This document shows, one piece after another, positions 1 through 64,000 of a DNA stretch of 64,000 nt. The first letter of the stretch is position 1, and each line of letters starts with the position of its first letter. This DNA comes from Phalacrocorax aristotelis (lineage: Eukaryota > Chordata > Aves > Suliformes > Phalacrocoracidae). Under the pieces are notes generated by a model. That model saw nothing but the letters and a program-made list of their open reading frames with translations, was not told where the DNA came from and did not search any database. The stretch spans positions 87,001 to 151,000 of the forward strand of contig NW_027441293.1 of assembly GCF_949628215.1 (NCBI RefSeq), given 5' to 3'. Made by a program: the position numbers and the translations under genes.

Positions 1-1418
1 TTTGCAACATCAAACAGAACCAAAACGACCTCTCAAAGAGAACAACTCCGCTACAAACACCACCAAAATGCTTTGCAGAAATACACGTTCTTAGCACAGC
101 ACAGGTTTAACCAGCTTCCAGGGGCATGAACACGGGGACCACCCTACTGCGACGTTAGACAGTGTCACAGATTTTAAGATTAAGACGCAGTGACAGTGCT
201 TCCTCCCCCGTAACTGCAGGCGCTGGCCAGTTCGGTTGCATTGCCACTCACACTTGTGCGCGTGGTTTCTCTTGTTCACTGCTCGGTCAGTCCAATTCAT
301 TCCATACTTACGCAGGAAGAGCTGGCATCGCATATTTCCCACTGCTTGTCAGCACAGCACCCTTTGGGTTGGGATCTTTCACCTCCACCATGGAACTCCA
401 CGGAATTCCTGTGCTCTTTCTATCTCTGGGAACAGGCTCAAAGGTTTTGTCCTGCTAAGAAAAGAGGTGCAGACTTATCTCGTCTGAAGAACCACGTTTA
501 AAATGACATTTCCATGAGTATTTGAAGCAGCAAAAGCCTCTCATCCTCTCATTTTACCCAGCATAAGTGTTGCTCAACTAAAATACTCCTTTGCCTCAGT
601 GAATAGAGCCGGGATATTCCAAAGGCTTGGGCAGGGTTTTGAACTCACTCGACATTCTTTGGCTTAACTTCAGGTTCCCTAAGGGCGAAACACCCCTCAG
701 CTCACCATCCACTCAGAGAAGGGGCACAAACCCGCTCCTCCTCCAAAGCGCAGTGCAGAGTGAGAGCTTAATTCCCTGCTCTGGATCCGTCCCTGGGGAA
801 ACTCCTATTTGCCACCTGGGTACGAAGGTTGGATTCATGCCTCACGCACACACCTTCAGTGAGTAACGTTCAATGGCATGAATACTCAGCCAGAGGCTTG
901 GGCAATTAAAACACGCAACTATTCAATAGGTGGGGTCAGCAGCAACATCTTGGTTTTATACGAAATACTAAAAACCGTGAACCGTCATTAAAGGACTTGA
1001 AAACTGAAAAAATTTCCAGCAATATTGAAATACATAAAAATATGCAAGCAAGCTCTCAGAGAGCGATTGATGGACTTATTTAACGTCTATGACCTGGAAA
1101 AAAGAGCGTTTCACGTTTATAACTCCAGGTGTCCCTTGAATCCTGAAGGGCTTTGCAACACTGCCTTAGAACCTCTCGATTTCAGTTTTACTGAAATAAA
1201 CTCAGCAGTGTTTCTTGAGAGCTCAGGCTCAAGTGCAGCTTTACCACAAGGAAAAAGGGTAACTGTCCTCTTTCTCCTTTTCCAGCCTATTGAATTATAT
1301 CATGCCCCCAGCCCCAGGTAAGCTTACGCTAGGAAAACATTATCAGAGAGACACGTGACTCACTGCTTATCGTCTCCTCAGTTGTTCAAAAGCGCAGAAT
1401 CAAATCTCACAGTCGGCA

Positions 1419-1808
1419 CGGAGGGACGGACCGCGCGGAGGGACGGACCGCGGGGAGGGACGGACCGTGTGGAAGGACGGACCGCACGGATGGAGGGACC
1501 CCGTGGAAGGAGGGACCGCGCGAAGGGACGGACCGCAGAGAAGGACGGACCGCAGAGAAGAACGGACGGCACGGAGGGACGGACCCCGTGGAAGGAGGGA
1601 CCGCGCGGAGGGACGGACCGCAGAGAAGGACGGACCGCAGAGAAGAACGGACGGCACGGAGGGACGGACCCCGTGGAAGGACGGACCCCGTGGAAGGACG
1701 GACCCCGTGGAAGGACGGACCGTGTGGAAGGACGGACCGCACGGAGGGAGGGACCCCGTGGAAGGACGGACCGCGCGGAGGGACGGACCCCGCGGAAGGA
1801 CGGACCGC
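1419..1808. repeat. 17-bp minisatellite, long allele (about 23 units)
   Basis: Tandem array of a GC-rich 17-bp unit close to CGGAGGGACGGACCGCG, with variants such as GGAAGG and CCCCG. About 390 bases, 23 units. The unit length is not a multiple of three, yet units lack stops in several frames, which creates long but meaningless ORFs on both strands. The mirrored array in R1 has 7 units. Confidence 0.95.
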
Positions 1809-2145
1809 CCCAGACCCGCGGCGGTAGGTATTACAACACTCGGGTGTCGCTCTCGTTTTGTCTCTCCCCCCTTTCTCCCTTTTTTCTCTCTTTCTCTGCT
1901 TTTCTCTCGCGTCTCCATCGCTGGCCAAATGAAGGGACTTGGCACTTTGATTCCGTTTTGAGTCTTAGTTCTGTTCCCGAGAATGTAGAAGGAACGTGGC
2001 CACGGCAACACGTTGGAGTCAGTCAGAAGTTAAGCCCAGCCGCCCCCAACCTCCCAGAATTCCCTGAGGTCGGTTGGAAAGCAAGGGGGTTTAACCTCTG
2101 CCAAATTGTTCAGCCCGACAGTGGATCGTGACAGACTGGTAGGAG

Positions 2146-2474
2146 TGTTACCGAAAAACGCGGTAAAATCAGAAACAACTCTTTAACAGCAATTTAGTAT
2201 TAAAGAGCAGGCATTCTTTATTCACAGCGCCGGATGCACGCGGGATCGCTGCTCCTAACGTGCGTACCTTACGCACCTTTCCCGTACAATTTATAGATCA
2301 AAAATTTACATATTCATAGATATTCATTATTGTCCTTTCTACCAATCAGCACAAACTTGCTCGTTCCATATGTAAATTACTGCGCAGACTCAGTTATCCT
2401 CTTTGTTGTTCTCTTCTGAGTAGGTGGTATTACTTGGGTCGGTGGTGGTCCGTGAGTCGGTGGTCGCGATCTCC
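2146..2474 (-). mobile_element. ERV LTR fossil, left-arm copy
   Basis: Fossil long terminal repeat read on the minus strand. The proximal end falls at 2146, with the terminal CA of the LTR reading as TG on the plus strand. The family-typical TATA-like motif and polyadenylation signal (AATAAA) are present in the expected order. The distal end is uncertain; a polypurine-like tract lies near 2475, and 3-prime internal sequence may extend toward 2560. It occupies the mirrored position to the right-arm LTR, so a single insertion was duplicated with the arm. It appears solo, or the last LTR of a lost provirus. Class-II-like avian ERV is a guess from general layout. Confidence 0.75.
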
Positions 2475-3409
2475 CCCTGTCGGAATTACCTTTTACCTAC
2501 TTGGCTCTTAATCTTGGCAGTCCTGGCCAGTTTTCTCAGTCCGCTACACGAAACCACATTTTGTCATCCTTTTCTGACAGAAGCACATTGTCTATTGTTT
2601 CGTTCACATTAATGATTGCCGAGGGACTAAAATGCAGATCAAAGAATACACTGATTGGTATACTCCATGTCCCCAGACTTAACGTCCAGTTGGATAAGGC
2701 TGTACAAGGAGTATAGCAACATCTATGGTTGGTTAATTCGATCGCTCTGGTTACAGGAGCAGCAACAAAGAGGTGGTTTTAGCAGTTTTTCTCCAGCAGG
2801 TATGCCCTGCTGCAAGGTCTGGCCTATCGGCCCAAGGACTGGACTAGAAGCAAATAAAGAGGAAGCCGTCAGCTGCTTCCGTTTGCAAGAAATACCAAGT
2901 CAACAATTGCTAAGTTCTTCCTGTTCATATCTCAGGGTCCTTTAGAGAGCTTGACATCTCCGCATGATTCCCGCGAGGCTTTGGCTACCACACGTGCTGT
3001 GCCCCACAGCCTCGCAGTTAAATTCCCCTTCCTGCGCTGCAGCTGCTTCGTGCAGTGGCCATAAGCTGCTCTGTTCCTCCTGCGTTTTGCTGGCGAGACG
3101 GCTGTACGAGGGCGATGCTGGCGGCACACACCGGCTACGGGGCTGCTCCAGTCCTCCTCTACACCCTTCCCTGTTCCCTCTTGCTCCTTCTAGCAAGAGG
3201 TTGTAAAAGTAGCAAGTCACTTGAGCAACTCTTCTCTAGCATGCAAGTCCTGTCAAACCAGTAACATGATACACCTTAAAGTCTCTGTTCCTTTATGGAT
3301 TATAGAGGTGTGACAGAACACCAGCAACACCACCATCACCACCCCCAGCCACGGCAAAAAAGATGACATTTCTTTACAGCCAGCCACCAGATGAGCCGGT
3401 AACAGGAGT

Positions 3410-3661
3410 GTGTGCCACTGGGTCGCTGAGGCCAGCAGGGACTGGGGTCCATTTCTGAGCAACGCTGTCCTGTATAGAAACAAACCCGTTCCTGCTTTTC
3501 AAAAGCTTTCAATATTAGACATGAATGAACTGGTCAGTAAGATACCTAAAAAAGAGGTTTTCAAAAAAGAGGATTTCAAAAACATTATTTTAGCAAATGG
3601 ATTCATGAGCAGAGGGACCACAGAGACCTTTCACGCTTCTACAAAAGCAGGTCTTATATAA
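3410..3661 (+). other. Short mirrored ORF, unknown
   Basis: An 83-codon ORF whose middle is rich in Lys, Phe and Ile in a plausible protein-like pattern. The mirrored ORF at 42570-42821 (minus) stays open with two replacement differences. No family is recognised and no clear splice sites frame it. It may be a chance ORF preserved only because the arms are so similar. Confidence 0.2.
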
Positions 3662-3991
3662 AAATCACAAGCAAAACAAGCTGAAATTAAAATGGAAAAA
3701 AAAATGAAATAAGAGAAAGAAAATGGATTGGGGGGCAGTGAAGACAAAGTATTGTCTAATCCTTTTGTTATTTAGCTGTATAAATATTGATTGTGCTGAC
3801 AGGTTGCTGACAGTTTTTGGGGGGTGTGCCTGGGTCTGCTGGTTGCTGCCAATTTTGGGGGAAACTTGAGGATTTGGGGGTGTTGCTGTGTCAGGTGCAT
3901 GCTGCTAGGTCTGGTGGGAGCAGCCAGGTGTGGGGTGCGTCTGGATTTAGGGTTTGTTCCTGGACTGGGGCAATGCTACCAGGTCTAAGGG

Positions 3992-4678
3992 TTATTTTGG
4001 GTTTGGCGGCTGCCGCTGGGTTGACGGCAGCCTCTGTTCCAGTGGACACAAACCCTGTCCCTGCAGCAGTGCCAGCAGTGCGTCTCGTAAGGCGCTGGGC
4101 ACTGCTGTGGTCACGCTGCGCTCTCTGGCTGGTTGTTTCAGCAGGTCGGCTGCACGGCTGGCCTCCCTTGAGAGGCGCTGGGGTGCCACCCTCAGGTGGA
4201 TTTCACTTGCTGTGTTTGAGGTGAAACTGTGTCCCTCATGTTCAGAGTGCTTTAGGATAGCACACACCATGCCGGCTGCTCCGCCTTGGTAGTAAACAGT
4301 GTGTTTCTGTTTGTGGATTTGTTGCGCCGTTCCTTCTTTTGAATCTCTGATGCGGATCACTCGGGGCCATTGGTGGAGGCTGATTTTTGCACCGTGCCTG
4401 CTGTGTTGCTTGTCAGTGGTGCAGGAGGGGAGCCAGGCAGCGCTGCTCCACTGCTGCCCCACTGCTGCCCCACTGCTGCTTGCTGGGGTAGCCGTGGAGG
4501 AAAGAGGCTTTAGGAAGTCCCTTCCTAAGTCCAGCGGAAGCTGAAGAGGTTTTCTGCCAGTGGAGTTCCTGCTCTGTATGAGGTTGCTGCCAGGCACTGA
4601 CTTTGTGCAGCCTGCGCTCCTGTTGACTTGCTGCTCTGTGTCACAAAGGGGTTTGTCAGGCAACTGTCTGGTGAACAA
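3992..4678 (-). CDS. Conserved 228-codon ORF, left arm, unknown
   Basis: An uninterrupted 228-codon ORF on the minus strand, basic, with a serine/alanine-rich middle and a leucine-rich C-terminal third ending in a proline-rich tail. The right-arm counterpart (41551-42237, plus) has the same length and start and differs at roughly ten residues. I see no signal peptide, membrane segment or known motif. A neighbouring acceptor-like stretch and a short ORF (left 4933-5199; right 41066-41296) lie on the same strand upstream, so it could be the end of a spliced gene. It could also be chance: with arms this similar, frame retention is weak evidence. Confidence 0.3.
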   Translation of the reverse strand: MFTRQLPDKPLCDTEQQVNRSAGCTKSVPGSNLIQSRNSTGRKPLQLPLDLGRDFLKPLSSTATPASSSGAAVGQQWSSAAWLPSCTTDKQHSRHGAKISLHQWPRVIRIRDSKEGTAQQIHKQKHTVYYQGGAAGMVCAILKHSEHEGHSFTSNTASEIHLRVAPQRLSREASRAADLLKQPARERSVTTAVPSALRDALLALLQGQGLCPLEQRLPSTQRQPPNPK

Positions 4679-5133
4679 GGCTTCCGTGGTGCTTCGCTGT
4701 CTGGATATTCCAAAATAGGAGAGGGGCGCAGGTTAACATTTTTGAGGTGAGTTGAGCTTTTTAAGTTTTGGAGCTGACCGATCCAACAGAGTTGTGCTTA
4801 GGAAACCACAAATCTGGTATTTGAGGGCTTGTTGCACCCAGAAATCAAGCAGGCTGCATCAGTGTGACTCTAGGGATTGTTCAGCACAACGAAAGCTAAA
4901 GCGAGGCATACGTCACTAAAGGCGGCTGTGGGTTAGGCTAGATGAGCCACATCTACAAGCCTTCCCACCTCAGCATCTTCTGTGGTGTGCTTAGGAGATG
5001 AAGCTGTGCCTTGCTGTTGAACTTGGTCTAAACCCAGACGAAACCATGAGTTATTAGTGAAAGCCTGATTGCTGGTAGTTTGACGCTGCAATTGTAATGT
5101 TAATAGGCAGGGAGAGAAGGATGCGGGAAGCAG

Positions 5134-5299
5134 GTGTGTGACTTCTGTGAACAGCGGCAGCACAGGCGTGTGTGACCCTAGGAATCCAGGGCACAGCAAA
5201 GCCTTTGCTTCTGATCCAGCCTATTGGTCTCAGAGGAGCTTCCTAAAGGACGAGAACAACATGCTCATCTCCGCAGGATCCAGCAGTTCCGTGGTCCAG
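5134..5299 (+). other. Exon-like ORF with splice signals, left arm
   Basis: An open stretch of about 55 codons preceded by AAGCAG and followed by a strong donor, GTCCAG/GTAAGC, at 5299/5300. The peptide has ordinary composition (Ser, Asn and Lys rich, one Tyr-Trp pair) and looks like a real internal exon. The right-arm counterpart (about 40930-41095, minus) keeps the frame and donor with a few replacements. No family recognised, and neighbouring exons were not found with confidence. Confidence 0.3.
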
Positions 5300-6185
5300 G
5301 TAAGCCTTGAGTCAAAGAACCAGCTGGAAGCAGCTGTCACTAATACGCAGCTGGAGGCCGGTCAGTTCCTTTATCTCCCGTTATTAACATCCATGTCAGC
5401 GTAACGCAAAAGACCGGCATTTATCACTTTCCTGGTGTGAAGCAGTGGCTAGATTTTATCTACGTGTCTTGTCACCCTGGAACTGAGTGTTGCTGTCAAG
5501 TGTGCTTGCCAGTCTTGATTGCTAATTTAAACTGCTAGTGAGGGCTCTCTTGGCAGAGAGCAGTGCTTGTGTGTGCATTTGGTGGCTCGCTTATGAAGAG
5601 GAGGCACTTGATGGTTTGTTAGAGAGAGGTCTCTGGTGATCATGGTCAGGGAGTGCTGGAGAGCGCCTGGCAAGGTTATAATGCCACGCTGCTGGCGTAC
5701 GGTCAGAGGGGCTCAGGGAAGAGCCCATGAGCGACGATCGGATACGGTGCAGCAGTTCCTGGGCAGTGATCAGGAAATGGGGCAGTTGCCCAGAACTGCT
5801 ACTTTTACTCTCTTCCCATCTCCCATCACTGGTTTTTTCTTTCTTTCTCTGTCTGACTCCCTGCCTGTATTTTCTAACTCCTCCCTGTCTGTCCTACAGC
5901 CTGTTGCTATGGTCTCCTTTCTGTGTGGGACCCGTGTGAGCTGTGAGGCACCCGTGGGTTCCCTGAGGTGGAAGGCAGTCGAGTGAGCGGGGCTGCAGCA
6001 CAGGGAGGGAGGGAGGGAGGGACAGACAGACACAGAGAGAGAGACAGAAGTGCCTGAGCTGTGCCATGTGCCTGGCAGTGCAGAGAGCAGGAACTGCGGT
6101 GAGTCCTGGGCCCCTGGGGTCATGTCACCCCTCTCCTGCATCCCAGTCCCTCCTGACACCCCCTTCCCTTTCCCTCTGAGGATTT

Positions 6186-6345
6186 GTGGTAGGATACATA
6201 GGTACATATCTATGTATGTGTGTATATGTTTATGATATTATACCTAGACATATACATAATACAAATATTATAATTTCAAAATATTTATTTGTAAAAAAAT
6301 AAATCTATTCTTTATAAAAATAGAATCATATTATCTTAAACATAA
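6186..6345. repeat. AT-rich and TA/TG low-complexity tract
   Basis: A long AT-rich stretch with alternating TAT and TGTATG tracts follows a GGGA/GAGA simple repeat at 6003-6050. It is mirrored in R1 at about 39885-40045. No coding or regulatory content is seen. Confidence 0.8.
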
Positions 6346-7999
6346 AAAATACCTGTTTGTGGACGTAAGCCATCCCCAGCCCAGCTCAGCCACCCGTGGG
6401 GTGGGCAGGGGATGGGTTAACCCCCCACCCTCCCTCCCACTGAGCAAATGCCCGCAGGCAGAGAGAGGTGCTGCAAAGCCAACACCCAACTCTCTTAAGG
6501 AATTCAAGAAGAAACAGGGATGTGGGAGAGGGCTGGGGCTGGAGCAGCTGGGTGCTGGTCTCTGCCTCTGCATCTCTTCTGCATGTGGAAAGGAAAAGTC
6601 TTTTTCTATTCCCTGCCGGTGCTGGATTATGTGAGGTCTCCTGAGCTTATTCTTGACGTGGGAGCACCAAGAAACAGAAAAACAAAAGTTGTGGGGGAAG
6701 GAACCAAAGATGCTGGTGAGCGTTGCCTTTCCCCTTTCCTTTGCTCCTCGAAGCTTTCTTCTCCTGCCTTCCTGCATGGACCTGCTCGCCTCCTGTCTCT
6801 CCCTGCTGAGTATTTTCTCCCCCGGAGTGCCCCAGGTCCTCTGGATGAGCTTCTAACGGGGTCGCTTGGTCCTGCAGTCTTTGTCTTCCCAGTCATCGTG
6901 AAAACTGTCAGCATGGCATGGAAGCAGAGTGGAAAAGGTGCCTGCAGAGGTCTCGGGCGTGAGCTCACGGGGGCTCTTAGTGAGCACAAGCGGGTGCTGA
7001 GAGCCTGCCCTGCTGGAGGGCCTCACGCTGCGTTTGCAAGCTGTCCTGGCACTGCCCCTGAGCTGCCTGCACAAGTTGAAGAGTTGGCTGGTGCCAGTGG
7101 GAGGAGGTGGGACTGAATGGGGGGAGCAATGGCTTCTCCTTACAGGAAAGGCTTGTCCAGGTGGGACCCTAGTTGCCACCTGCTCTGGGCCGGTGCCTTT
7201 CAGCTGCACCATCCCTTGCTTGTTCTTGGCGAGTTGCTGCACACCGAGAGAGGCCAGAGAGCTTCTTCAAGCAGCGCACCCAGCTCGCTGCCATGCAAGT
7301 GCTTCTCCACTGACGTGCTCTTGTGACCCGTGAATTCTCACGGCTGCTTCTCTGTTTGGTACCCGCAGGGTCCGACCGAAGGCACCGTCTGCGGTTCAGA
7401 GCCGAGCTGCTTGGCCAAATCAGTTCTTAACCCTGTGATGGTCATAGCAGGAATGAGAGCCAGGGCACCCTTCTCCATGTGAACGTAGTTTCTTCTTCTC
7501 CTTCCAGCCTGAAAACCATGCGGGAAAGTGCTGGCCCTTGCTGGGAAGTCGGGGACAAGCCTTCATCAAGCTGTCTGTGCCAATCCTTCCCAGAGCAGTC
7601 ACCATGGACCACGTTTCAGGACAACGTTCCCTGGAGACAGTATCGGCAGAGCTCCAAAGGACATGGCTGTCTACGTGAGTGGTTTCTCCAGAGTGGGGGG
7701 CTGGGTGTTGCACAGCGTTTCTAAGCCGGGGGTGAGTATGGGTCAAAGAGTCCAGCGGCCTCTGGCCTCCTCCTGGCTCGCAGAAGCAGCAAGCTCCTTG
7801 GAGCTGTATTGCGCTTCTGTCCAATATACTGTTCGAAAGGAAGGTTCTGGGGCATGATGGAACTCGGGGAGCCACAGGGAAGAGGAGGTGGCACAGCGCA
7901 CTGTCCTAGCCCTTCTGGCTTTCAATCCCCGTGGGCATTTGTGACCCTCAGGTTACCCCCCTCCCCCTGGGAACATCTGCTCCTTCTCTGAGTGGCAGC

Positions 8000-8275
8000 C
8001 TAGACTCGCTGAGTAGGCAAGCGTGGCGTGCTACCTAGGTGCAGCTTCTTGTCTGCTCCTTGCGCTCGTCTTGCTTTGACTGCGTAGCTGAAATAAACCC
8101 GTGCTTCACCGACTGAAGTTAAGTCTTCCCACAGTGTGTGAGGCGCTCTGGTTTCTCCACCCCCGTGTTTCTCTTGGGCCTGAAGTAGGAACCTGAGGAG
8201 CAGGGAAGGCTCCTGGGACAGTTCACTTTCCAGGCAGTGCTGAATCACAGTCAGGCCTTGCAGCTGAAGGTACGG
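8000..8275 (-). other. Leucine-rich exon-like ORF in both arms
   Basis: On the minus strand an open frame begins after an acceptor-like stretch near 8275 and encodes a Leu/Gln/Glu-rich segment followed by about 50 basic residues to a stop at 8000. The R1 counterpart at about 37954-38227 is also open. It has protein-like composition, but no family is recognised. Confidence 0.25.
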
Positions 8276-8969
8276 GGACAGAGAGGGAGGAGAACTGTAG
8301 GAGAGGAGGAGAAATGCGCTTGGCTGGGGAGAAGCTTCCCTGCCAAAGGGCTATAGGCAGCCCTGTCCTTGAGCGTGTGCCACGCTGGCCTTTCTTCTGC
8401 TTTAACTTCCGAACAGCGTGTGCCTGGAGAGCTGTTCTTTTTCTCTTTCCTTTTGGGTTTAAGCTTCAGTGCCTACAACCACCGCAGCTGAAGCTAAAAC
8501 CACCTTGAGTGTCTGGACTGCAAGTGGCTACAAGTGGCCACATCCCGTAGAACGCACTACTCCTGGCCTGCTGGTGAAAGACTCGAAATCCTGGCCTTTC
8601 TGAGGCCTCTGTTGCTGCTGGTAGCGAGCAGTGACAGGGAGGCCATTCTGCTTCAGTGCCTTTCTAGAGAAGGCAATGAGACATTATACTAACAGCACTG
8701 GGTCTTGTGACTGTGGAAGCAGGCTAGAAGACCTTGCCAAACTGTTTGCTGAAGCTTCTGGGAGCTGCTTCTTCCTTTACTCTTCTTGCAGCCAAATGAG
8801 GTAGAGCAGGATCACACTGTCTTGACCACGAGAGGTGCAAAGACCTCGCAGGGCAGCCGGAAGGAAGGTGTTGACCGAGGCCGTCACCGCGGCACTGCTC
8901 TGTCCTTAGTCAAATGCTAGAGAGGAAAAGGCAGCTCCGAAGAGGGGGGGACGGTTCTGGGCCGGTGGG

Positions 8970-9976: not shown

Positions 9977-10060
9977 AAGGCTGGGGTGGGGCGTGGGGTG
10001 GGAGTCCCAGAGCAGCAGTTCAAGGCCTCCATGCTGTGGTGTTTGAGTGGGACGGCTGCT

Positions 10061-12816: not shown

Positions 12817-13062
12817 CTGTTGGGGGAAGCAAAGAGGGGTGGTGGGGTGAGGTATTGGTGGGCAGAGCCCGTTGGGGGGTTACCTGGAGGGCAGGAGCAC
12901 CACGAGGAGCAGGAGCCTGATGCTGTACCTGCCTGGCGGTGGGTCAGTGTGGGGTTTGTTTGGGGCAAACACTGTTCTGGGGTTCTGTCCCCAGGGCGAT
13001 CATTCCGCCAGCACCTGCCTGAGCCAGCCTTGCCAGGGCTGGATTTGTCATGCCTCAGCAAC

Positions 13063-20561: not shown

Positions 20562-23757
<3,196 letters not shown>

Positions 23758-35636: not shown

Positions 35637-35637
35637 G

Positions 35638-35838: not shown

Positions 35839-35849
35839 AGGATCGCCGG

Positions 35850-52900: not shown

Positions 52901-55900
52901 TCAAGGCTTAGAGCAGCAAGAATTCGAATAATCAACGCACTTTTGGTGGTGCTTTGAGTAGCTGAGAAGATTGGAGATTTCATCTGATTTCCAGGAAGTG
53001 TGAAACAATATAAAGTTGTCTCAATTACTGCGGGCACTTCTAGGAGTAGAATTCTTGTGGCCCAAAGGAAAGGTAAATTCTGTAGCAGATTGCCAGGCAG
53101 CGCAGTCACAGCAAGTGCTTGATACGGGAGAGGAGAGAACTTTGGGGCTTGGAGGTTTGGTCAGTTTTTCCCCACCTCTGGGGAGAAAAACCAATATATA
53201 TAAAAAAAGGAATCCTTGTGGTGCTCACTGCTCTGTTCCATTGTCGTGTAACAGGTTGGTGTTGATGTAAAGCTCCCTGGTGTCACTGTGTGACATTATG
53301 CAAGGAGGCTGAAGGGCAGCCCGTGTTCTTTTGTTGTGGAGCCTTAGTGCAGGAGCCCTCACGTGCTGGTGTCTCTGCTGGAGCAGTCAGGGCTGTCCCG
53401 GGAGGGGCTGCAGGTGCTGAAAGGTCTGTCTTCATCAGGGCCTTGTACTAAAGCTGCTGGCAGGCGGCTCCGCGTGTTACAGAGCAGCGTGCGCTTCTCC
53501 TCAGCGGGAGCTGGCTTTTGGCGAACCAGCTGCTGGGCTTTTTGCCGCTGTTTCGGCACTGAAAACTTTTCTGCTTTCCCTGGTTGCTCTTTTGATTCTA
53601 AATGAGGACTGGTGTAACTTTCCCTAAGCTGGTATCTCCCTTCCACTATCTGTAACAATACTCCATTGCCGTGGCAGCGGTGTGTCTCCCCTGCAACTTG
53701 GCCGCTGCCGCGTCTGACTGAGAGCCGAGATTTGCCCTAATACCTGTTTGGCAAAGAAGGCGTGGGCTGTATCCCAGTGCTGACGGGCTGGGGGCCGTGG
53801 GAGAGCGAGAGTGAGTTTGGTCTTTCTTACTCCAGTCCCTTAAATACGGTCAAGTTTCTTGCATTTAACGGATTTTCTGTGTTGTCTTCGAGTTAATGGT
53901 TTCTAAGTAGAAAATGGAACTTGGTAAGCTGTGATAATAGACTGCACCATTGCAGTTGGAGTGAGCTCAGCGAAATCCCTGCAGGAAACCCAGTAAACGG
54001 AAGGCAGTAACGGATTTTTGTACCGGACATTTTTGGGGGTTGGTTTGTTTGTTTGTTTTGTCTGGATATAATTGGGATCAATGCTGTGTTTTTAAGTCTT
54101 ACAACCCTGTATTTACTTTCTTGCTTCTGATGGGCTGGTTCTGGCTTCACTTTTGAGTGATTTCTATTTAGCTTGTCAAAGAGCTTAAATACTAACTTGT
54201 AGTTTTCCTGTAGGTAACTGCTGTAGAGCCCATAACCAACCCCGGAGGAGCCAGCGTGAGGCCTTGGCACCTGCACCAGGCTCTGCAAGGGTTTTGTGGC
54301 GTGGCAGCGGTGGCGACAGATGTTGGTCATCTGCTTGTGGTGGACCTTGGTTTGGATGATCTCTCTTGCAGTCAGAGGGAGAATGAACCATCGGGTGAGC
54401 TTGCGGTTTCTAAACTTGAACGGAAAAGTAAGAAAACTTGAGTCTTTTAAATCACCAACACGCATCCCACTTTGAAGCTACTGCTGTGCAGACGTTTATG
54501 GCTGCTGATTACAGGTGGCGGTTTGACATCGTCTAGTCCTGAATGGATTAAAAATGGGAGTGGCTTCATACTCCTCCTAAGGTTACAAATACCCCCTCCC
54601 ACCAGGGTCCCTCTGTCACGGTGACTCTCGCCAGTGAGGGGTAGGAATTTGACCATCCGAGTCAGTGCAGCTGCCTGACAGGAAGGTGTGTCGGACGTGC
54701 CCTATTTCCTGGGAATGTTCTTCTGCTTCTGTTCATTGACTTGGGGCAAAGTTTAGGCTTGTTTTTTAAAGTAAATATGCCTTACCAAAATCCCTGCATT
54801 TGACCAAACGGAACCTGTACTTGGTGTACTCGGATTGCATACGCTGTTTTTGCTCTTACAAGAGTGGCCTCGGGAGCTGGTGTCACTTCAAGTAGCTTCA
54901 CGATGAGGCCCAAACTCCTGATGTGCAGAGCCCAGGAAGAATTTGTCTATGGAGGTTTCGCTTTCACCTGGTTTTGAAATAGGAGCGAGGATACCTGTCC
55001 AGTCAGAGAGTTCCTATGTGCTCTGAATGCGTACAAAATGGGAAGAGCAGACAAAGTATTGCATCAATGGGTATTTTGCCGGGGATGGTAGAATTAGATC
55101 ATACATGTTGTCACGTCAGTGTTTCAAATGCAACCTGAATGGCATAACGCATTCCTTTATTGTGTGGTTTTGTGCGTGCAGGTCTAACAGTTGTCACTAG
55201 AGCTGCTGCTGGCGTTTCACAAGGAAGAGCAACCGTGACCAGAGCAGGGAGACATCTCTGCCTTCAGTTACAGTGTTCTTCAGGAACAGCAGTATCGACC
55301 CTGTGCTACATCAGCAGAAGCAACCAGCTCGCTGTGGGTTTTTCCGACGGCTCCTTGTCACTGTGGAATATGAAAACTCTGCAGCGGGAGTAAGTCGGCC
55401 TTTGCACTTGGTCACGCCTGGAGGTGCAGGGCTCTCAAGGCTCTGCTTGAGGAGGAAGTCTGTTAATTTAAAGAGCCCTTTTTCAGGGAGGGAAATGTGG
55501 AGTGTAATCTTGGAGTGTTTAGGAATCCCCTTCTGAAGTAACCATTGAGCCATACCTGGATTCAGTGGGCCGCCTTCTCCCCAGCGGGCTGGGATTGTTC
55601 TCCTTATTGTGCCTGTGGGCTGAGGAACTGCGGAAAGCTCCCTTCTCTGGGTTCTGTCAAGCAGTTAGGGCGTGAGAGAGCTGCTTTCCATAAGGCAGTT
55701 TGTTCCACCAGCAGTATTCAGTGACAGCAGGAGTTGTGTGTGTTTCAATGAAAGAGATTGTAGACATTATTTCTCAGAACCAGCTCCTGCAATGAGGGCA
55801 CCCATTGAAAGGCTGAAGTATGTTAATGGTGGGATTGTGGTGATAATATTCTTTAAAGCGTCCAGGTTGAAAGGAGTGAGACATGAAAGCTCAAGAGCTG

Positions 55901-58900
55901 ATCTGTGGCTGAAAAGACATTCTCTCCCACATTTCAGCCTCGACCAAAAGAGGGGACTGACCCATTCCAAGGCAGCGATGCATGGGAATGAAAGTCTGCT
56001 TGGAACACTTGGAGGTGGAATAAGGGTCGTGTCAAGGGATAAGCAACAGAGAAATTAGGGAGATGATTTCAGCTCTGCCAAAGAGCAATCCCCCCTGGAA
56101 TATCTGACCCAATTCAGATCGGGATTCACTTAAGCAAATCTGCAGTGACTCACCGGGAACTATTGGCGGCATGAATAGAGAGTGGAGGGATAGTGAGGTG
56201 GCAAGAATAGATTGTGAAGGTGCAAAGAAGGTTCAGAAGTCTGGAGGAGAAACGCTTTAGATAGTCCAAGTAAAGAAACAAGACACTACTGGTGTTTGGC
56301 ACTGTTTTCAGCTTGTGCAGAAGAGAGGCTGCATTTTCAGTTCAATATTGAAGCAGGCGACAAGAGTAGGAAGAATCTTTTGCCTGGCAGCTGAAGGAAT
56401 CTTTCATGTTCCTGCTCCGCAGGCAGAGGAGGAGATAAAGCCAGGTTATTGCCCGTGAGGGACAGTAATTTCCTCACCTCGTGGCTGTTGCATCAAAAGC
56501 AGTCGCTCCCGTGACTCCCTTGTTTGAGATGGGAGTGTGACCTTCTGTGCCTTGAGGAGAAGCACGTCAGGGGCTCTTTGCTCAGAAGATGCTTCTCCCC
56601 TTCTACAAACAGGCAGGGCCACCAGGCTCACCTGCTTTCTTTGGTTTTTTTAACCCTGCAGGCACCACTGTCAGCTGGAAGGAGGAAGGATTCCTGTCTG
56701 CGCCGTTACTTTTCAAGAGCCTGAGCATGATCCTCGCAACTGTTGCTACTTGTGGGCTGTTCAGTCGACGCAAGAAAGGTGAATAAAAGCTTACTATCGG
56801 CCACTGATTTTTCTTTTTTTTTTGAGTATTTGTTCACCTAGAGTTGACCCACGTGTATTTGTTTTGTTGAATTAGCCGTGCAGGAGATTCTCTCCGGTAT
56901 GGAAGGAGCTGACGGTGCGATTTGTACAGGATGTAACAGGGATGAAGAGGGACCTACTAGTTCCTCCCTGCTGAAAGGCAGCAAAGCGACAGTGGCTCTA
57001 TTTCTGTGCTGGCATTCTTAAATGGCTTCCTTTGTTTCCTGATGACTGCTTCATGGTTTGCTTGATATTCACACCGTGGTATTAAGATACCATGGAGCGC
57101 AGTGGAGGCTGCAGCTCCAGAGCACTAAAGGTGCGGATCCACCAGCCTGCTGCCCCTAAAGGAGGAGGTGACAGCATGGCCGGTTCCCTGGTGCCAGCCT
57201 GAGCCTTGGTGAGCCAGCTCAGCTCGGCTGGCAGGGAAGGTGTTCAGCAGCCAAGTCGGTGGTTTCCTGCTGGGCTAATGACTGAAACGAGGGTGTGGAA
57301 GGTGCCGTGTGTGCAGGGGAGGGACTGGAGCTTTGGTGGGAAGGGAAGGGGAGAAAGATCTGCCCCCTTCAGCATCAGCAAGCTATTTACTCAGCTCGGC
57401 TGCTCATGGAGTGGCAATCTTTTTCAGTTTGACTGTAAAGCAGTTTTGATTGCGAGCTCTTCAATGCAAAGAACTGTTCCCAACCATTTTTATTCCATAG
57501 AACACCTTGAAGCTTCCAGATTGTATGGGTAGCCTTTGCCCCAGAAGCTGTTAGTGTCCAAATTTCCTCCTTTGTGGTTTGGTGGCTAAATGTGACCAAT
57601 TCTCAGGTTTTGGGAAGGGCTGTTTTTCTTTTGAGCCAGACAATGCTATTAAGGAAACCTCAGCCTAGATCTAAGGAAAGGGTAACGAGGACTATAAAGC
57701 AGCTTTGTAACCAAATGTCATCATTTATACCTTTTCCAGTGAAGGCGATGCCGTGAGTTTACATCTGTTGCAGTTAGCGTTCGCAGACAGGAGGCGCTTG
57801 GCTTCAGGACAAGTCATGTACGAGGTAAGACGTGCACGTCCGTGAAAGGCTGGAAAGAGTCCTTTTCCCTAAGGGAGCATCAGTGAAGTTGGCAGGGAGA
57901 ATATGGACCATGACAATTCAGAGATGACTTAAAAAGAAAGAATCTTTTGCTGAGTCTTCCTGGGCACGGCCTTTGTCCATACTTTTTGAAAAGAAGTCGT
58001 ACAATTTCATACCGCCGTGTCGTGTGTTCCAGCCAGGGCCGTCTGCAAAGAGCCCGTATAAATTCAGTTCCTGAAGAGGCAGCAGCTTTTACAAATAAAA
58101 TGATTCTTCATTTAAACACCAACTGAATGGCATGTAGGAAGAGAAGACAGGGCTTTGAGTAGCTCTGTTTAACCAAACTGCAGAGTTGAATAAGGTTCTG
58201 TCTGTCTCCCTTCCTTAAAACACGGGCGTACAGCTTTATTCTGTTCCGGTCTTCAGGTTTAAATTCTTGCTTTCCCTTTGAGCTCTGTCAGCAGGACTTC
58301 ACATGATGCTCACCTGCAGGGTCTCTTCGGTGCTGGTCCTGAAACTTAGTAGCTCTAAAGAGAACTCTTTCTACTTTTTGGCTGCGTTACCTATGAACTC
58401 TGCTCTTGAAGCCAGCAAAATACGCAAATACAGTAAAGAGTGGTCTGATTTGGTCAAAAAAGTATATGTAAATTTTTAGAAGTGGCTCCAAAGAGGTTGT
58501 GTTTAAAATAGAGATGAAGTAGCCTTACCTCTCTGTTATCTAACAGATAGAAGATGCGTTTTTAGAACGTATAATTTTATTCAGTGTTATGCCTGAAACC
58601 CTTGCAAAATCTTTTTGATGGGAAAGTAATCTTAATTCAGAGCATGTCTTTCCTGTTGAGGTGCAGTAGGAGAGGATCTGTGCTCTACAGCCTTGATATT
58701 TATTAGTAGTATTTCCTAGAATGGTTAAGAGAAAGCTTGCCTGTTCTCAGAGTAGGTGAGTTAAATGTAACGTATCAGGTCATACGAGAATGGATTGTCT
58801 CGTGCCAGCTCATGCCAGTTCCTTCTAGAGCTCTGAAACTTTAGGAAACTTGGGTAGAATGAGGTACAATCAATTTTTTTATTTTCTGGTAGGTTTTTGG

Positions 58901-61900
58901 AGACTTTTAGCTGCTTGGTTTTTGGTTTTGTTTGGTTGGTTTTTAATTGTAGAGCTGCTCTTTGTCCACAATCCACACGCCCATGTGTTGTAGGGTAGAT
59001 CATTTGACCAAGTGCTGTATTTGGAAAGACAGTATTTCAGTCAATGCTTGCTTAGCAAATGGTGGTCTCAGAGGTTCCACACAATCCTGCTGGAGTTTCT
59101 GTAGGTCTCAAAGTAGTTTGCTGACTCTGTAGGGATTTGTGATCCTAAACGCCTTGCCCACGTGCATGCCATGTCCGCCGGGTTGTTTTGCTGTTGGCTG
59201 CACTTGGTGAAGGCAGGGAGGCATATTTCACCCATCAGTCCCTGAGGAGGTGAGAGGAGGAGCTGGCAGGAGCTGACGTGGTTTGAGAGAAGAGTGTGAC
59301 TCAGTAAGAAGTTCTCATGGCTACTCCTGAGGGATGGGCTTTCACTCTAGCGGTGTGTGCCTATAGATAATGCCTTGCAAGAGAGCTTTGGCTGCTGGAA
59401 GGCCGTGACTCCTCTAACTTCATCAGTTCTGTGATCAAGTCATGGAACAAAGCGCTTTGCATGCCTATGTATGGCATTATTTCAGATCTCCCTTTGTAGC
59501 TAAATATGTAGGTTTGTGAAGAAACCGGGATGGTGCAGGGAATTCTGCAAAACACATTTAGAACCAATATTGTGAGGGAAATGCTCAGTTTTGAAAATGT
59601 GCAAAGCTTTTACGGCCAAACTTACCCGTTACGGTTTGACACTCAGTTCTCTTGCGTGTCAGCTGTAGTTTCTCTTTGCCATCAGATTAAGTGCCTGGGA
59701 GAGATACAGTACAATATGCAGGTTCTATTAGACATAGACATTCTTTCCTACTGAGGTATAATGTCTGCTTTTCTCTCAGAATGACCCTTCTCTCGCCTGT
59801 GATTTTTTCCGCAGCGTTTGGCATCCTGTGTTGAAAAGTACAGTTTGGATCTGGCGGGCGGAGCCTTTCCCTTGAGAGGGCAGGGCAGCAAGGCCAAACT
59901 ACTCAGCTGTCAGGCTATAGAAACCTTTCCCAACCGCGCAGCCAGAGAAGGCAGCGTTGATGAAGGTTTGTTCCTGATGTCCCTGTTTGGTTTTTCTAAA
60001 CTAAATGGTTTTGGCATCCAAGCAATGAATGCTGTTCCATACCCACAGCCTGAAAGTCTTAAGTCTCTGTATAAACTAACTTCTTGGGCTTATTTCAAAG
60101 GAAAAACTGGGTGCTGAAATTCTGTGGGACTTGTTAAAATAAACCCTATTTTTCCCTTCAATGCTTGCTGACATGCTGTAGCGATGTATGGTGGGGTCAC
60201 CTCTATAACGCCTGTCAGTCATTTTATTCCTCCAGCTCTCGTCTTTGAACAGTAAGATCATCCCCTCCATTGCTTAGGAATGTTCCCTCAACTTTCTTTT
60301 TTCCCCTCTTCCAACCTATGCCTGCACCTGCATCCAGCTGGCGGCCGGTCAGGAGTGCTGTTCCCCAGGGCTCGGTCCTGGGGCCAGATCTGTTTGATAC
60401 CTTCCCCAACCACCTGGATGAGCCGGCAGTGTGCCCGCGTGGCCAGGAAGGCCACCAGCATCCTGGCTTGTATGAGAGATAGTGTGGCCAGCAGGAGTAG
60501 GGCAGTGATCGTCCCCCTCTACTCGGCAGTGGTGAGGCTGCACCTCGAATCCTGTGTTCAGTTTTGGGCCCCTCACTACGAGAAAGACACTGAGGTGCTG
60601 AGTGTGTCCAAAGAAGGGCAGCGAAGCTGGTGAAGGGTCTAGAGCACAAGGTTTAGTTGGGATCTTAGGAAAAATTTCTTCACAGAAAGGGTTGCGAAGC
60701 AGTGGAACAGGCTGCCCAGGGAAGTGGTGGCGTCACCATCCCTGGAGGGAGTTAAAAGACGTGCAGACGTGGCGCTTTGGGACAGGGTTTAGTGGTGGAC
60801 TTGGCAGTATGAGGTTTACAGTTGGGCTCGATGATCTTAAGGGCCTTTTCCAACCTAAATGACTCTACGAGTCTATGATCTGCCTGTGCACTTTGCCCTC
60901 TCTGTGTCTAATAGGTTCCTACACCTACAAGCTCTTAAAGCAATAGCTTCTGGCTTCCCTCGTCCGGACCGACAGTTAAAACTCCTCTGGTGTCTTTCAT
61001 TACCTTGCAATAATGAGATGTGCATCTCTGGGTTTGCACATCCAGTGATGCTCTGAGCACATCTCTGAGCCGGCTGCAGTGATAACTTCCACAGCCTTTT
61101 GTTTGGGTGTGTGAATGCCCTTCCCTCTCTTCTTACTGGCCTTAACTTATGTCTGCTTGTTACAAAGACGACACTGGCATGACTTTCTAGGCTATTTGTG
61201 TTTATTAGCTTTGACTTAGTCCTGAAGAGGCAGCTTCCACCTCTTTTGGGGTGCCATCCTCTAACAACAGCGTGTCAAAATCTAATGAAAACCCCTTTGG
61301 ATTTTCTCCACTTGTGTCACGATTCTGAGGAGAGGGCCTTCTAAAACCTTGTCAAAAACAACCAACACACGCACCCACCAAAAAACCCAAACCAAAACCA
61401 ACAAAAAAGGCCCTTTCGGTCCCCTTTTCATGAAGTCTGAGGCATGGAAAAATGCTTGTCATTTTTCTGATGGCTCCTCATTAGCTTTTATCCAGAAACT
61501 ATTCAAGTTGTAGGCCCACATGAGCTTCTGTTGGATGTGGGTTGAGGTTAGAAATGCAGCTGGCTTCTGATTTATGAAACTAATTGACATCTTCAAAGGC
61601 AGTTTCAGCGGCTCACACAAGTGAAAGGGCACAGAAGCTCACGATGACACACAGTAAAGTGTGGGAGGCTCCCTGAGCAGCCCTGATGAACTCAGCAGAG
61701 AACAGAGACCCATTTTGCCAAATGACCTGTCTCCTGGTTCCCTGCTCTGTCAGGGTAAAGGATGCACCCCCCACTTTGCTCACATCTGGAGAATGCCTTC
61801 TCCCCAGAGGCGACAGACCATGCCACTTCTTGAGAGAACCCGAGTGTAACATGGTCAATGTTTGATGTTAAACTCTTTGTTCCAATCTCCTGTTTGTTGG

Positions 61901-63341
61901 GGTTGGGTTTTGGTGTTTGTTTTGTGTGATAATTGTGTTCTTTCATTCTGACTGTGCTGGAAAGGAGCTATTCGTAACACTCGTAATCGAGTCGAATCTG
62001 GAAATTAATCATGCCAGCTGAGTGATCAAGTGTATATGACAAGAATTTGTATGCTTTCTAAAAGCAGCAAAGTATGTTTTCCTAGGGTGGTGGGTTGGTT
62101 TTTGGTTTTTGTTTTTTTCTAACCATCTTGATGCACTCTTACTGTATGGGAAACTTGATTACCTGACAATTGTGAATTGGATTTGTCTTAGGACGGATAC
62201 AGGTTGAACTCGCAAAGGGGGCAGCATGACTGAAACCTATCACAGAGGTGATGCTATGGTGTACATTGTTAAAATTCTTCTTAGTCAAGTGTTGCGTTTC
62301 ATGAGTGACGTAACAGAATGAATCCAAAATAGAAAGTGATGTTTTGAAAATGTCAGATAGATTGTATTTTCTCCCACTAAGAAACAATGTCTTGCCTTTT
62401 CCAGTCATATCTCCTGGCACCAGTGTCTCAGTCTTCAGCTGGCAAGTGAATACACGCGGCCAGGGAAAACCATCTACTTATTTGGGTGTATTTGACTTTG
62501 ACTGCTGGTATCAGGCTCAAAAGCCAGGCTCGCTAAGGTAGGTTTTTATGAAGCTGGTTTCAGTATCCCTCCCCATAATTCATTGGAAAGTCGGCGTTTA
62601 GCTTCTGCACTTGTTTTCTTTCAGGCCAGAAGAATCCCTTCAGGACTGCCCCTATTTTGCACTGTGGTCACTGGATGCTGTAACAAGCACGACTGCTCCA
62701 AACCTCCTTCTGGATGTTGTGGTGCAGGAGCGCAGCCTAAGCTGGAGAGTTCCTCCTTCTTATCCACAACCTGAGCTGTGTTTTCATCCAAGCACCTATA
62801 ATTTTGGTAGGTATTACACGGCTTTGAATAGTGATAAGCTTAAACGAGCTCAAATGCCATTTATTGGTTCTCCTGTTCACTGTTTGTCACGCAAAAACCC
62901 AACCAAACCGAAACACCCCAACCCCCCACCCACCCAACTGTGATGACGTTGTACTGACCAAGTGTGTGCTGTTGTGACACCTGCCTGACAGGCGGCTGGG
63001 TCTGGGGGTTGGGTGCTTCTGTAACGCAGCCCGTGAGGTGGTGCTGGTGATCAAATGAAATGACTCTGGGCTGAAGCTCAAAGCGCAGCACCTCGATAGC
63101 CCCGGAGGGAAAATCTCTACACTCAGTCATCGTTTTTCTAAAAAAGGCTGTAAGTGATGTGATGAGAAGAACGGGTATTCAGTTGTACCTTTCCAGAGGT
63201 TGCTGTGACAAAAATGTAAACTGGTGCTACCATCACGGTGAGAGTATGGAATGTTGTCCAACGTTCATTGTCTCTGCAGATGGCACGTGCCTGCTGAGCT
63301 CTGGAGTTGTTCATGTGACGTGCAGCGGCTTCCGGAAGGAG
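49860..63341 (+). CDS. AHCTF1: AHCTF1 (ELYS) N-terminal region, ten coding exons
   Basis: ELYS is the nucleoporin that binds chromatin and seeds nuclear pore assembly on post-mitotic chromosomes and at kinetochores. Ten exons are seen: 49860-49980, 51189-51442, 54214-54394, 55182-55389, 56662-56778, 57740-57824, 59815-59965, 62405-62537, 62625-62806, 63280-63341. All borders are AG/GT, all phases agree, and the joined frame is 498 codons without a stop. Hallmarks: [132 protein letters not shown]. This covers the seven-bladed beta-propeller (about 490 residues in mammals). The helical middle and AT-hook tail would lie past 64000, if present. The exon 10 donor is GTGATC, weaker than in L2. Either a full gene running off the window or an N-terminal duplicate. 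Confidence 0.95.
51189..51442 (+). CDS. AHCTF1: AHCTF1 exon 2
   Basis: Acceptor TTCCAG/GGAGAG; donor AGG/GTAGGT. It encodes the segment from [16 protein letters not shown] to [10 protein letters not shown]. Phase 0 at its end. Confidence 0.95.
53110..53318 (+). repeat. Dispersed 200-bp repeat, copy 2
   Basis: Partner of 35638-35838, in AHCTF1 intron 2. Neither arm pair covers it, so it is an independent dispersed repeat and not part of the segmental duplications. Confidence 0.75.
54214..54394 (+). CDS. AHCTF1: AHCTF1 exon 3
   Basis: Acceptor CTGTAG/GTAACT; donor TCGG/GTGAGC. It encodes [12 protein letters not shown] to [10 protein letters not shown], containing [20 protein letters not shown]. 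Confidence 0.95.
55182..55389 (+). CDS. AHCTF1: AHCTF1 exon 4
   Basis: Acceptor GTGCAG/GTCTAA; donor GGGA/GTAAGT. It encodes GRHLCLQ and [20 protein letters not shown], a WD-like propeller strand. Confidence 0.95.
56662..56778 (+). CDS. AHCTF1: AHCTF1 exon 5
   Basis: Acceptor CTGCAG/GCACCA; donor AAAG/GTGAAT. It encodes [20 protein letters not shown] and [16 protein letters not shown]. Confidence 0.95.
57740..57824 (+). CDS. AHCTF1: AHCTF1 exon 6
   Basis: Acceptor TTCCAG/TGAAGG; donor GAG/GTAAGA. It encodes [14 protein letters not shown] and ASGQVMYE. It is the last exon not duplicated in L2. Confidence 0.95.
59815..59965 (+). CDS. AHCTF1: AHCTF1 exon 7
   Basis: Acceptor CCGCAG/CGTTTG; donor GAAG/GTTTGT. 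It encodes [20 protein letters not shown] and onward. The L2 partner is 30231-30081; all 11 base differences fall in nine codons and change the residue. Confidence 0.95.
60105..62112. other. 2-kb segment in AHCTF1 intron 7 present only in R2
   Basis: Left intron 7 is 431 bases, right intron 7 is 2439. Flanks align across the gap (TTGGGCTTATTTCAAAG before; TTTTTTTCTAACCATCTTGA after). The extra segment holds a CR1 element at 60336-60879 and about 1.2 kb of unidentified DNA with T/G- and A/C-rich patches. Either inserted in the right copy or deleted from the left. Confidence 0.8.
60336..60879 (+). mobile_element. CR1 LINE, internally deleted, with 3-prime end
   Basis: Begins in the reverse-transcriptase domain ([16 protein letters not shown]), then jumps to the C-terminal ORF2 region (GTGTGGCCAGCAGGAGTAGG and GTGTTCAGTTTTGGGCCCCT) and runs through the 3-prime untranslated region to the terminal repeat TCTACGAGTCTATGAT. 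The reading frame is broken and it cannot be active. It lies in AHCTF1 intron 7, sense orientation. Confidence 0.95.
62405..62537 (+). CDS. AHCTF1: AHCTF1 exon 8
   Basis: Acceptor TTCCAG/TCATAT; donor TAAG/GTAGGT. It encodes [20 protein letters not shown] and onward. Identical at every base to the L2 partner 29649-29517. Confidence 0.95.
62625..62806 (+). CDS. AHCTF1: AHCTF1 exon 9
   Basis: Acceptor TTTCAG/GCCAGA; donor TTTTG/GTAGGT. It encodes [19 protein letters not shown] to FHPSTYNF. Three base differences from L2 29429-29248, all silent. Confidence 0.95.
63280..63341 (+). CDS. AHCTF1: AHCTF1 exon 10
   Basis: Acceptor CTGCAG/ATGGCA; donor GAG/GTGATC. It encodes [20 protein letters not shown], the end of the propeller region. 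It differs from L2 28772-28711 at three bases, two of them replacements. Confidence 0.95.
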
Positions 63342-64000
63342 GTGATCTTTTACTGTATCTTTATTGAGAATGTCAAGAGATGGACCTTTCCTAAGCTTTC
63401 CATGGCGCTGCTTTCGGTGTCAGGGACCATTTAATGCTCCTCCTGCCCATCCACACGCGTAACTGCAATTGTACCCTACCAGTTTTATCAAATGTAATGT
63501 TTGAGGTCCCCTCTTGGGAGTGTAAACGCACCGTTGTCTCCTGTTGAAGCACGATCAGGGCCTGAATGTTTAGAAAGGAAGAGAGTGCTGCTCTAGGAGC
63601 AGGAAGAGAAAGTCGGGGAAAGCTGTTCCTTCTCTCTCATCAATGAGTGCAACTGCCTGCGTGGTCCTGAGTTCGGGTTTTGATCCCTGATTACCTTGGA
63701 AAAGAGGACAGAACGGAGAAAAGGAAGCATCGTTCCCTCAGAACAACCTTCCCCCCCCGTCAGTCTCTCAAAGCATTAGGTTCCGTGCAGGACCTGACGA
63801 TGGGGGTGTCTCACTCGGATGCGAGTGGCTGCGAACATCCGCTTGCGGGACTATACCTGATCGTTTGCTTCCAAGGCAGTGAGCTGCAGCAAACAATTGC
63901 TGTTGGCAGCTCTACCCGATGACTTCCCTGTATTTTCCCTTCATTGGTCGGCTTTGCTGCAGCCTCTCAAAGCAGATCTTCACCTCTGTAGCCTTTGCCT

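Follow-up and report, generated by a model that had tools for sequence, protein, structure and literature searches.

A FOXJ1-like gene in a probable palindromic amplicon array of the European shag

The window analysed here, a 64,000-base stretch of DNA, lies on a 189-kb contig (labelled C238) of the European shag (Phalacrocorax aristotelis), assembled from one female individual using DNA from blood. Positions that are negative or above 64000 extend the window numbering along C238, and the window edges cut both of the repeats described below. The window opens in the inner half of a left arm, A (1..10356, + strand), which continues outside the window to -9856, where the C238 copy departs from its paralogues. 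Next comes a centre segment, B (10357..27572, +), which holds a FOXJ1-like gene. FOXJ1 is the master switch for motile cilia and, through them, plausibly for sperm tails too. Coding exon 1 (23257..23757, -) encodes 167 aa from an ATG and ends at a GT donor, with 161/167 residues identical to the annotated shag protein P0001. Coding exon 2 (20565..21362, -) follows an AG acceptor and is open for 266 aa before a TAA. Among the best 120 of 621 protein matches listed, the closest was a P. aristotelis FOXJ1-like protein (98 per cent). Next to arm A, on its inner side, lies a putative open frame with internal repeats (10929..11864, -); fourteen relatives were found, at 43–62 per cent identity save for an unnamed one at 95 per cent, and the named ones are from birds.

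The remainder of the window begins with fragment C (27573..31066, -), which repeats part of the AHCTF1-like exons of segment C′ in inverted orientation. A satellite of 20/21-base units follows (31328..35637), arranged head-to-head, in one orientation to about 33341 and in the opposite one beyond. The right arm, A′ (35881..55815, -), contains AHCTF1 (ELYS)-like exons (51167..55390, +; frames 51167–51454, 54214–54438, and 55148–55390), with mirror copies in the left arm at -5207..-9430. Segment D (55816..58979, +) leads into segment C′ (58980..64000, with its true end at 64467, +), which carries further AHCTF1-like exons and a 2-kb insertion (60096..62107, +) that is absent from C in the window. 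We take this insertion to be LINE-like, judging by eye; its first 384 bases adjoin the C fragment in sampled loci L002–L005, which end there. At E 0.01, no Pfam match was obtained for the insertion frame at 60256, four repeat-rich frames close to where the arm ends on its inner side, two further frames (48322 and 53896), a RING-like frame at 46542, or an RNF213-like frame, the last of which strongly matched solved RNF213. A search of the sequence for RNA families returned none reaching its gathering score.

A preliminary description had read this window as two interlocked inverted duplications with arms in the order L1-L2-R1-R2, where L2 is fragment C, R1 the inner half of A′, and R2 segment C′. 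Self-BLASTN of the window and the rest of the contig confirmed the four arms, their order, and their inverted orientation. Within the window, 1–1536 aligns with 45958–44423 (99.1 per cent), 1675–10356 with 44539–35881 (97.6 per cent), 28039–29948 with 64000–62108 (93.8 per cent), and 29951–31066 with 60095–58980 (96.2 per cent), all inverted. The arm bounds first given (1, 45958, 28039, and 64000) proved to be window edges or images of edges rather than arm ends, and 45958 is no junction, as the arm continues across it to 55815. Over the whole contig, the first pair matches -9856..10356 with 35881..55815, and the second 27573..31066 with 58980..64467, with the 2-kb insertion in R2 only. The arms of the first pair are 20 kb long and 98.74 per cent identical (251 mismatches in 19,930 aligned bases; 1.26 per cent divergence overall), a length that excludes a chance origin. 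Directly after the second pair, a third one begins (64467–76303 vs 90636–102469, several pieces at 94–98 per cent) and reaches the contig end. The left flank of C238’s own left arm is not mirrored.

Searching the genome with FOXJ1-like exon 2 gave sixteen matches at 97–100 per cent, on C238, C147, C306, C157, C101, and C122; fifteen are without a stop. By number, none of these six contigs is a chromosome. Besides these array copies there is a single FOXJ1 on chromosome 16 (C16), an 85 per cent exon-2 match. Two of the sixteen matches are probably one locus: C101 and C122 are identical over 4,846 and 3,999 compared bases. In a tree, seven of the shag copies fall together with the protein from shag chromosome 16 (support 92/89, outside the tool’s starred branches). 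On this reading the chromosome 16 gene, intron included, would have been the source of a copy made within the shag’s own lineage, and the copy may then have been amplified together with its surroundings. The satellite is present at ten of the sixteen matches, 10.5 or 15.6 kb from the gene, and all four combinations of satellite type (99–100 or 77–78 per cent) and distance occur. Divergence from unit to unit was 0.4–2.4 per cent in the pieces compared.

We mapped the array from sampled points on the paralogous contigs, reading both sides at ten places. At eight of these (C306 203k, 442k, 704k, and 1009k; C157 160k and 263k; C101; and C122 29k), the flanks outside both arms are mirrored: D-C′ flanks each arm, and the sampled flanks map to positions 54975–70383 of the window numbering, those on one side running opposite to those on the other. 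If C101 and C122 are one locus, this count of 8/10 becomes 7/9. The left flank lies 11–490 bases from the mirrored position predicted from FOXJ1 at five of the eight places and is off by a common 3.1–3.3 kb at the other three (C306 704k, C101, and C122). At C306 829k (satellite or nothing) and 923k (a short 85 per cent repeat), mirrored flanks were not found at the sampled points, and no FOXJ1-like match lies nearby. A sample farther out from the C306 704k place, at 640001, gave no match. At the C306 285k unit, arm sequence was not found at 265001, which means that C238 is not the only unit with a changed left side. A further set of twenty samples included six without a match to C238, two of satellite, and one short weak match. 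In three left-flank samples, C and C′ matched equally at 654001 (97.2 per cent), C matched better at 392001 (96.7 vs 94.8 per cent), and the sample at 110001 was 98.8 per cent identical to C and 99.2 per cent to C′; since C and C′ match about equally, the mirrored reading of these three rests on position. Most of the sampled mirror-image blocks carry an extra FOXJ1-like copy.

These observations bear on whether the structure is a single switchable locus at which two separate inverted duplications interlock by coincidence. The order, orientation, and identity of the four arms fit such an origin, as does the unmirrored left flank of C238. It is nevertheless very improbable, given the flanks mirrored outside both arms at the paralogous places and the recurrence of the fragment C/satellite joint on C306 (twice), C122, and C101, which marks a many-copy unit. 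We instead consider it highly probable that the window represents one of the repeated units in a palindromic amplicon array. Because DNA outside both arms is mirrored, the basic object is one larger palindrome. The full unit would be rc(Q)-centre-Q, repeated along several scaffolds, where Q (A′-D-C′-E, about 35–40 kb) would include the 5′ part of the AHCTF1-like gene. The centre, of ~25–31 kb, would hold a predicted intact FOXJ1-like gene, the partial AHCTF1 fragment C, and, at some copies, the satellite. A further type of centre, with olfactory-receptor frames in C238 and differing elsewhere, may link the units. Exchange between units may keep the copies alike, a reading supported by the four combinations of satellite type and FOXJ1-satellite distance. 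On C306 the arms follow as rcQ (15–30k), Q (70–100k), rcQ (143–165k), Q (230–236k), Q (315–330k), rcQ (392–405k), and Q (469–475k), and at 52k, 188k, and 427k a FOXJ1-like copy sits between rcQ and Q; between sampled points, we infer the order of the units.

In such an array, R2 would be part of a longer arm and L2 a separate central fragment, as both arms share the mirrored flank. The second ‘interlocked’ pair would then exist because the partial AHCTF1 fragment adjoins the satellite in the palindrome centre. The C238 left arm appears to be cut at -9856 and joined to sequence with RNF213-like frames, and this cut, together with fragment C in the centre, would give the look of two interlocked inverted repeats. 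The case illustrates how an ‘interlocked’ pair can be what remains visible of a larger array once a window and a truncated arm have cut it. The arms, order, and orientation first described stand, while the locus is better described as a slice of a many-copy palindromic array.

Near-identical amplicon pieces could also have been wrongly joined during assembly, in which case the interlocking would be found in no real chromosome. HiFi fragments averaging 12–20 kb (PMC12605584) hardly span a 20-kb arm, C238 ends within a repeat, and no contig other than C238 showed the left junction at -9856; the complete identity of C101 and C122 in the compared pieces also suggests redundancy. We nonetheless regard a misjoined contig as improbable. 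With about one difference per 100 bases, the arms should be distinguishable by HiFi reads, and the C/satellite joint is found again at four places, spread over three other contigs. At 64467, too, a misjoin is unlikely, because three C306 places (L022, L023, and 330001) cross the C′/E joint there in continuous sequence.

The preliminary description had further proposed that recombination within one pair would reorient the other, and the geometry agrees: exchange within the first pair inverts 10357–35880, which holds L2, and L2 and R2 become direct repeats. By arithmetic, fragment C would then lie at 15171–18664 and the FOXJ1-like coding exons at 22480–25672. The predicted deletion-prone order also follows, as the inverted exons fall between fragment C and R2, so that a deletion could remove the gene. 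FOXJ1 and the satellite would change neighbours, as had been suggested; the AHCTF1-like exons at 51167–55390, contrary to that suggestion, lie inside the arms, with mirror copies, and would largely keep theirs.

Centres occur in both orientations along the array (C306 and C157), as inversion predicts, though this mixture could also come from inverted duplication or scaffold joins. On C306 the FOXJ1-like strands run - - - - + - + - (52k, 188k, 285k, 427k, 567k, 688k, 1020k, and 1157k), and the two C157 copies are on opposite strands. With long arms about 99 per cent alike, arm-to-arm recombination might flip centres often enough to vary between living birds. We find this possible but doubtful: both C122 copies share a strand, as do both C147 copies, the arms of one unit are not clearly more alike than separate units are, and the data come from one assembled individual, in which inverted duplications of old date, or scaffold joins, may account for how the centres are oriented.

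Ampliconic palindromes are a known class of repetitive structure; the shag array falls within it and parallels the ampliconic genes of sex chromosomes. Like the human Y palindromes, including AZFc, it has long inverted repeats (arms of at least 10 kb with a spacer: 20-kb arms and a 25.5-kb centre in C238, and longer mirrored arms at sampled paralogues), a multi-copy gene family (sixteen FOXJ1-like matches at 97–100 per cent), and interleaving, such that in the C238 arm order one inversion turns another pair direct and sets up deletion. It differs in its genes and in arm identity, which exceeds 99.9 per cent on the human Y (extract of PMC3723533), through gene conversion, and is 98.7 per cent here. 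In AZFc, a fixed r2/r3 inversion is reported to predispose to deletions (extract of PMC8009663). The songbird germline-restricted chromosome is also reported to consist of amplified and rearranged paralogues of genes from several autosomes, and we considered it for its mixed gene origins. We rejected it because shags lie outside the passerines and blood was the source of the DNA; that chromosome has been found in no bird order studied other than that of songbirds (extract of PMC10643108). A term search of the main text of papers on it found no mention of FOXJ1 or AHCTF1. In the chicken Z amplicon, too, amplified genes form a large array in a bird genome; the genes there are different.

Location on the W chromosome, as a female-limited ampliconic region, is a tentative possibility, somewhat short of even. 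The sampled bird is female, ampliconic palindromes are typical of sex-limited chromosomes (extract of PMC3403216), and, among the matches listed, no array copy lies on a chromosome-size contig except C25, which has satellite only. The same matches include none to a W and offer no positive tie to it, and the satellite near the start of C25 (chromosome 25 by contig number) points instead to a microchromosome.

Within the main texts searched, no report of this array was found. By protein-record name, extra FOXJ1-like genes also occur in cuckoos, a swift, a loon, a potoo, and a falcon (best 120 of 621 listed). Two cuckoo proteins group together in the tree and the shag copies group with shag FOXJ1, so at least these two expansions look independent; the swift, potoo, and loon rows of the tree stood by themselves or on long branches with uncertain placement. 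One speculative and rather unlikely scenario is that FOXJ1 has been repeatedly duplicated and amplified in separate bird lineages under genetic conflict, with the shag array as an extreme case: its copies would have evolved fast after duplication (dN ~ dS) and then been constrained, while arm-to-arm recombination would flip the FOXJ1-carrying centres and make copy number labile between birds. Here, a cilia regulator is present in a non-songbird in about fifteen near-identical extra copies, set in long palindromes and nearly all without stops in the searched exon. Should shags differ from one another in copy number or orientation, a monitored wild population would allow a test of how palindromic instability affects fertility genes.

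Comparing the window with itself reproduced the four arms of the preliminary description, which had read the locus as two interlocked inverted duplications in the order L1-L2-R1-R2, and confirmed their orientations. The window corresponds to positions 87001-151000 of contig C238. Once the arms were followed into the rest of this contig (189,469 bases, all compared; contig positions 17501-25000 are N), the outer arm coordinates of that description proved to reflect the window edges, and the real pairs extend beyond them. Comparison with the whole contig places the first inverted pair, arms A and A', at -9856 to 10356 and 35881 to 55815 (positions below 0 or above 64000 lie on C238 outside the window); their alignment of 19,930 bases contains 251 mismatches. 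The junction that ends arm A at -9856 was seen on this one contig. Divergence between A and A' is 0.3-1.9 per cent per kb across most of their length and 5-21 per cent in the innermost 1.2 kb. The same comparison sets the second inverted pair at 27573-31066 (fragment C) and 58980-64467 (segment C'), with a 2-kb insertion at 60096-62107 found only in C'. A third inverted pair (64467-76303 and 90636-102469) directly follows the second and reaches the contig end.

The FOXJ1-like gene lies on the minus strand, with coding exons at 23257-23757 and 20565-21362; it has a start codon, an intron bounded by a GT donor and an AG acceptor, and a stop. Pfam detected the two halves of the forkhead domain in these exons. 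Exon 2 is 98 per cent identical to 'forkhead box protein J1-like [Phalacrocorax aristotelis]', which belongs to a cluster of nineteen member sequences. The plus strand carries AHCTF1 (ELYS)-like exons that align with residues 44-497 of solved ELYS (4i0o), with a gap at about 271-326. Arm A' contains three such exon frames, whose mirror copies in the left arm are 98.8-100 per cent identical. Fragment C is also ELYS-like, with one strong frame (E 6.5e-20) and one weak (E 0.0013). The satellite is arranged head-to-head and turns at about 33341. Two other frames were noted. One at 10929-11864 is open and internally repetitive, with fourteen relatives (43-62 per cent identity, one unnamed at 95 per cent), the named ones being from birds. 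The other, at 46542-46811, resembles the RING region of RBBP6; a Pfam search of this frame gave no match.

We searched the whole European shag assembly (1,278,995,914 bases, 352 contigs), which its published description gives as 352 scaffolds and 1,279.1 Mb, from female blood DNA at 42-fold HiFi with fragments averaging 12-20 kb (PMC12605584). With all fifty-one candidates scored, FOXJ1-like exon 2 has thirty-five matches, sixteen of them at 97-100 per cent (eight on C306, two each on C147, C157 and C122, and one each on C238 and C101). Fifteen of the sixteen are stop-free, and one C147 copy has a TGA. A single 85 per cent match falls on C16 (14,992,538 bases, the length tabulated for chromosome 16 in PMC12605584), and the remaining eighteen (33-58 per cent) are matches to other forkhead genes or fragments. 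A 1-kb probe from the edge of C and the satellite has at least 186 matches, and among those listed nineteen are long: five at 99-100 per cent (C238, two on C306, C122, C101), seven nearly full-length at 77-78 per cent (four on C306, two on C157, C122) and seven at 89 per cent covering probe positions 378-1000 (C175, C240, two on C116, C274, C123, C25). The two features are paired at ten places, including C238, C101 and C122, at a spacing of 10.5 or 15.6 kb; the other six FOXJ1-like matches have no long partner among the satellite matches listed. Two stretches compared between C101 and C122, of 4,846 and 3,999 bases (loci L024/L025 and L004/L005), show no difference; the scaffolds may be redundant and represent one locus, or the duplication may be very recent. 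The same satellite family occupies C25:1542-10091, in roughly the first 10 kb of a contig that by its number is chromosome 25, perhaps a microchromosome end.

DNA outside both arms was sampled at ten paralogous places. In eight (C306 203k, 442k, 704k and 1009k; C157 160k and 263k; C101; C122 29k) the flanks are mirrored, both sides mapping to window 54975-70383 in opposite orientations. Three left samples match fragment C about equally well, so positions were compared with the mirrored prediction from FOXJ1: the left sample lies 11-490 bases from it in five of the eight places and is offset by a common 3.1-3.3 kb in three (C306 704k, C101, C122). At C306 203k the mirroring was traced as far as window 67964 on one flank and window 70383 on the opposite one. 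The other two places, C306 829k and 923k, lack a neighbouring FOXJ1-like match, and their far sides yielded satellite, a short repeat or no match. Of twenty additional 120-base samples from C306, eleven matched clearly, two were satellite, one matched weakly and six had no match; the clear ones within Q (A' through D, 55816-58979, and C' to E) are consistent with alternating Q orientations. Judged from these sequence comparisons, R1 and R2 both belong to one arm, about 35-40 kb long, of a larger palindrome, and it is the position of fragment C, in the centre beside the satellite, that makes the second pair interlocked.

On C238 the left flank is not mirrored: a GC-rich repeat lies there, with RNF213-like frames at a greater distance. 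The C306 285k unit has no arm sequence at sample 265001, so an altered left side is not unique to C238. A C fragment of about 92 per cent identity adjoins satellite on C175, C240 and C116 too, but at a different joint (30285 to 31444). The genome-wide exon-2 search found no FOXJ1-like match on these three contigs, and the combination of fragment and satellite therefore seems either to predate the FOXJ1 unit or to have arisen independently of it.

By arithmetic, recombination between A and A' would flip the segment 10357-35880, leaving C and C' as direct repeats on either side of the FOXJ1-like gene. This is reminiscent of AZFc, where an inversion is reported to predispose to deletions (PMC8009663). 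FOXJ1-like strands on C306 run - - - - + - + - (52k, 188k, 285k, 427k, 567k, 688k, 1020k, 1157k), and the two copies on C157 are on opposite strands, while the two on C122 share a strand, as do the two on C147. Such mixed orientation fits inversion, but is also expected from inverted duplication or scaffold joins. All four combinations of satellite type and FOXJ1-satellite distance occur: 99-100 per cent with 10.5 kb (C238) or 15.6 kb (C306 704k, C122 29k, C101), and 77-78 per cent with 10.5 kb (C306 1009k, C157 263k, C122 147k) or 15.6 kb (C306 203k and 442k, C157 160k). This mixture suggests that units have exchanged sequence. The two arms of C238 diverge by 1.26 per cent overall and by 0.9 per cent in the outermost kb, values not clearly below those between units (0.37-0.79 per cent among eight FOXJ1 loci, 0.7-2.4 per cent in other pieces). 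One C122 arm is 99.4 per cent identical to the C238 left arm over 838 bases, the sole directly comparable stretch. We saw no sign of arm-specific homogenisation in the limited material compared (C238 arms, unit pieces and this stretch).

In a protein tree of twenty-seven rows, seven shag copies cluster with the shag chromosome 16 protein at support 92/89, under the tool's mark for a strong branch. Rates were computed for seven full-length copies of the sixteen, an eighth (L031) being excluded for a match one base short. Exon 2 of these copies differs from the chromosome 16 gene by dN 0.067-0.076 and dS 0.070-0.091, and the twenty-one pairs among them average dN 0.0065 and dS 0.0176. On these small counts, this tentatively reads as rapid change after duplication and moderate constraint afterwards. 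Protein records from loon, potoo, cuckoos and swift also carry the name of FOXJ1-like paralogues (P0027, P0030, P0056, P0068, P0069, P0072, P0075, P0077, P0079, P0082, P0089), and one malkoha protein cluster has forty-eight member sequences. FOXJ1 duplication in birds looks recurrent and merits separate study.

Left of the truncated arm, C238:38555-42208 (window -48445 to -44792) is an open frame of 1,218 residues that matches RNF213; the 736 residues searched gave E 5e-198 against solved RNF213. At the centre of the third palindrome is a 972-base inverted repeat, 100 per cent identical (C238:163439-164410 and 170440-171411; window 76439-77410 and 83440-84411), whose left copy has a frame matching olfactory receptors (Pfam 7tm_4) and whose right copy carries the same frame.
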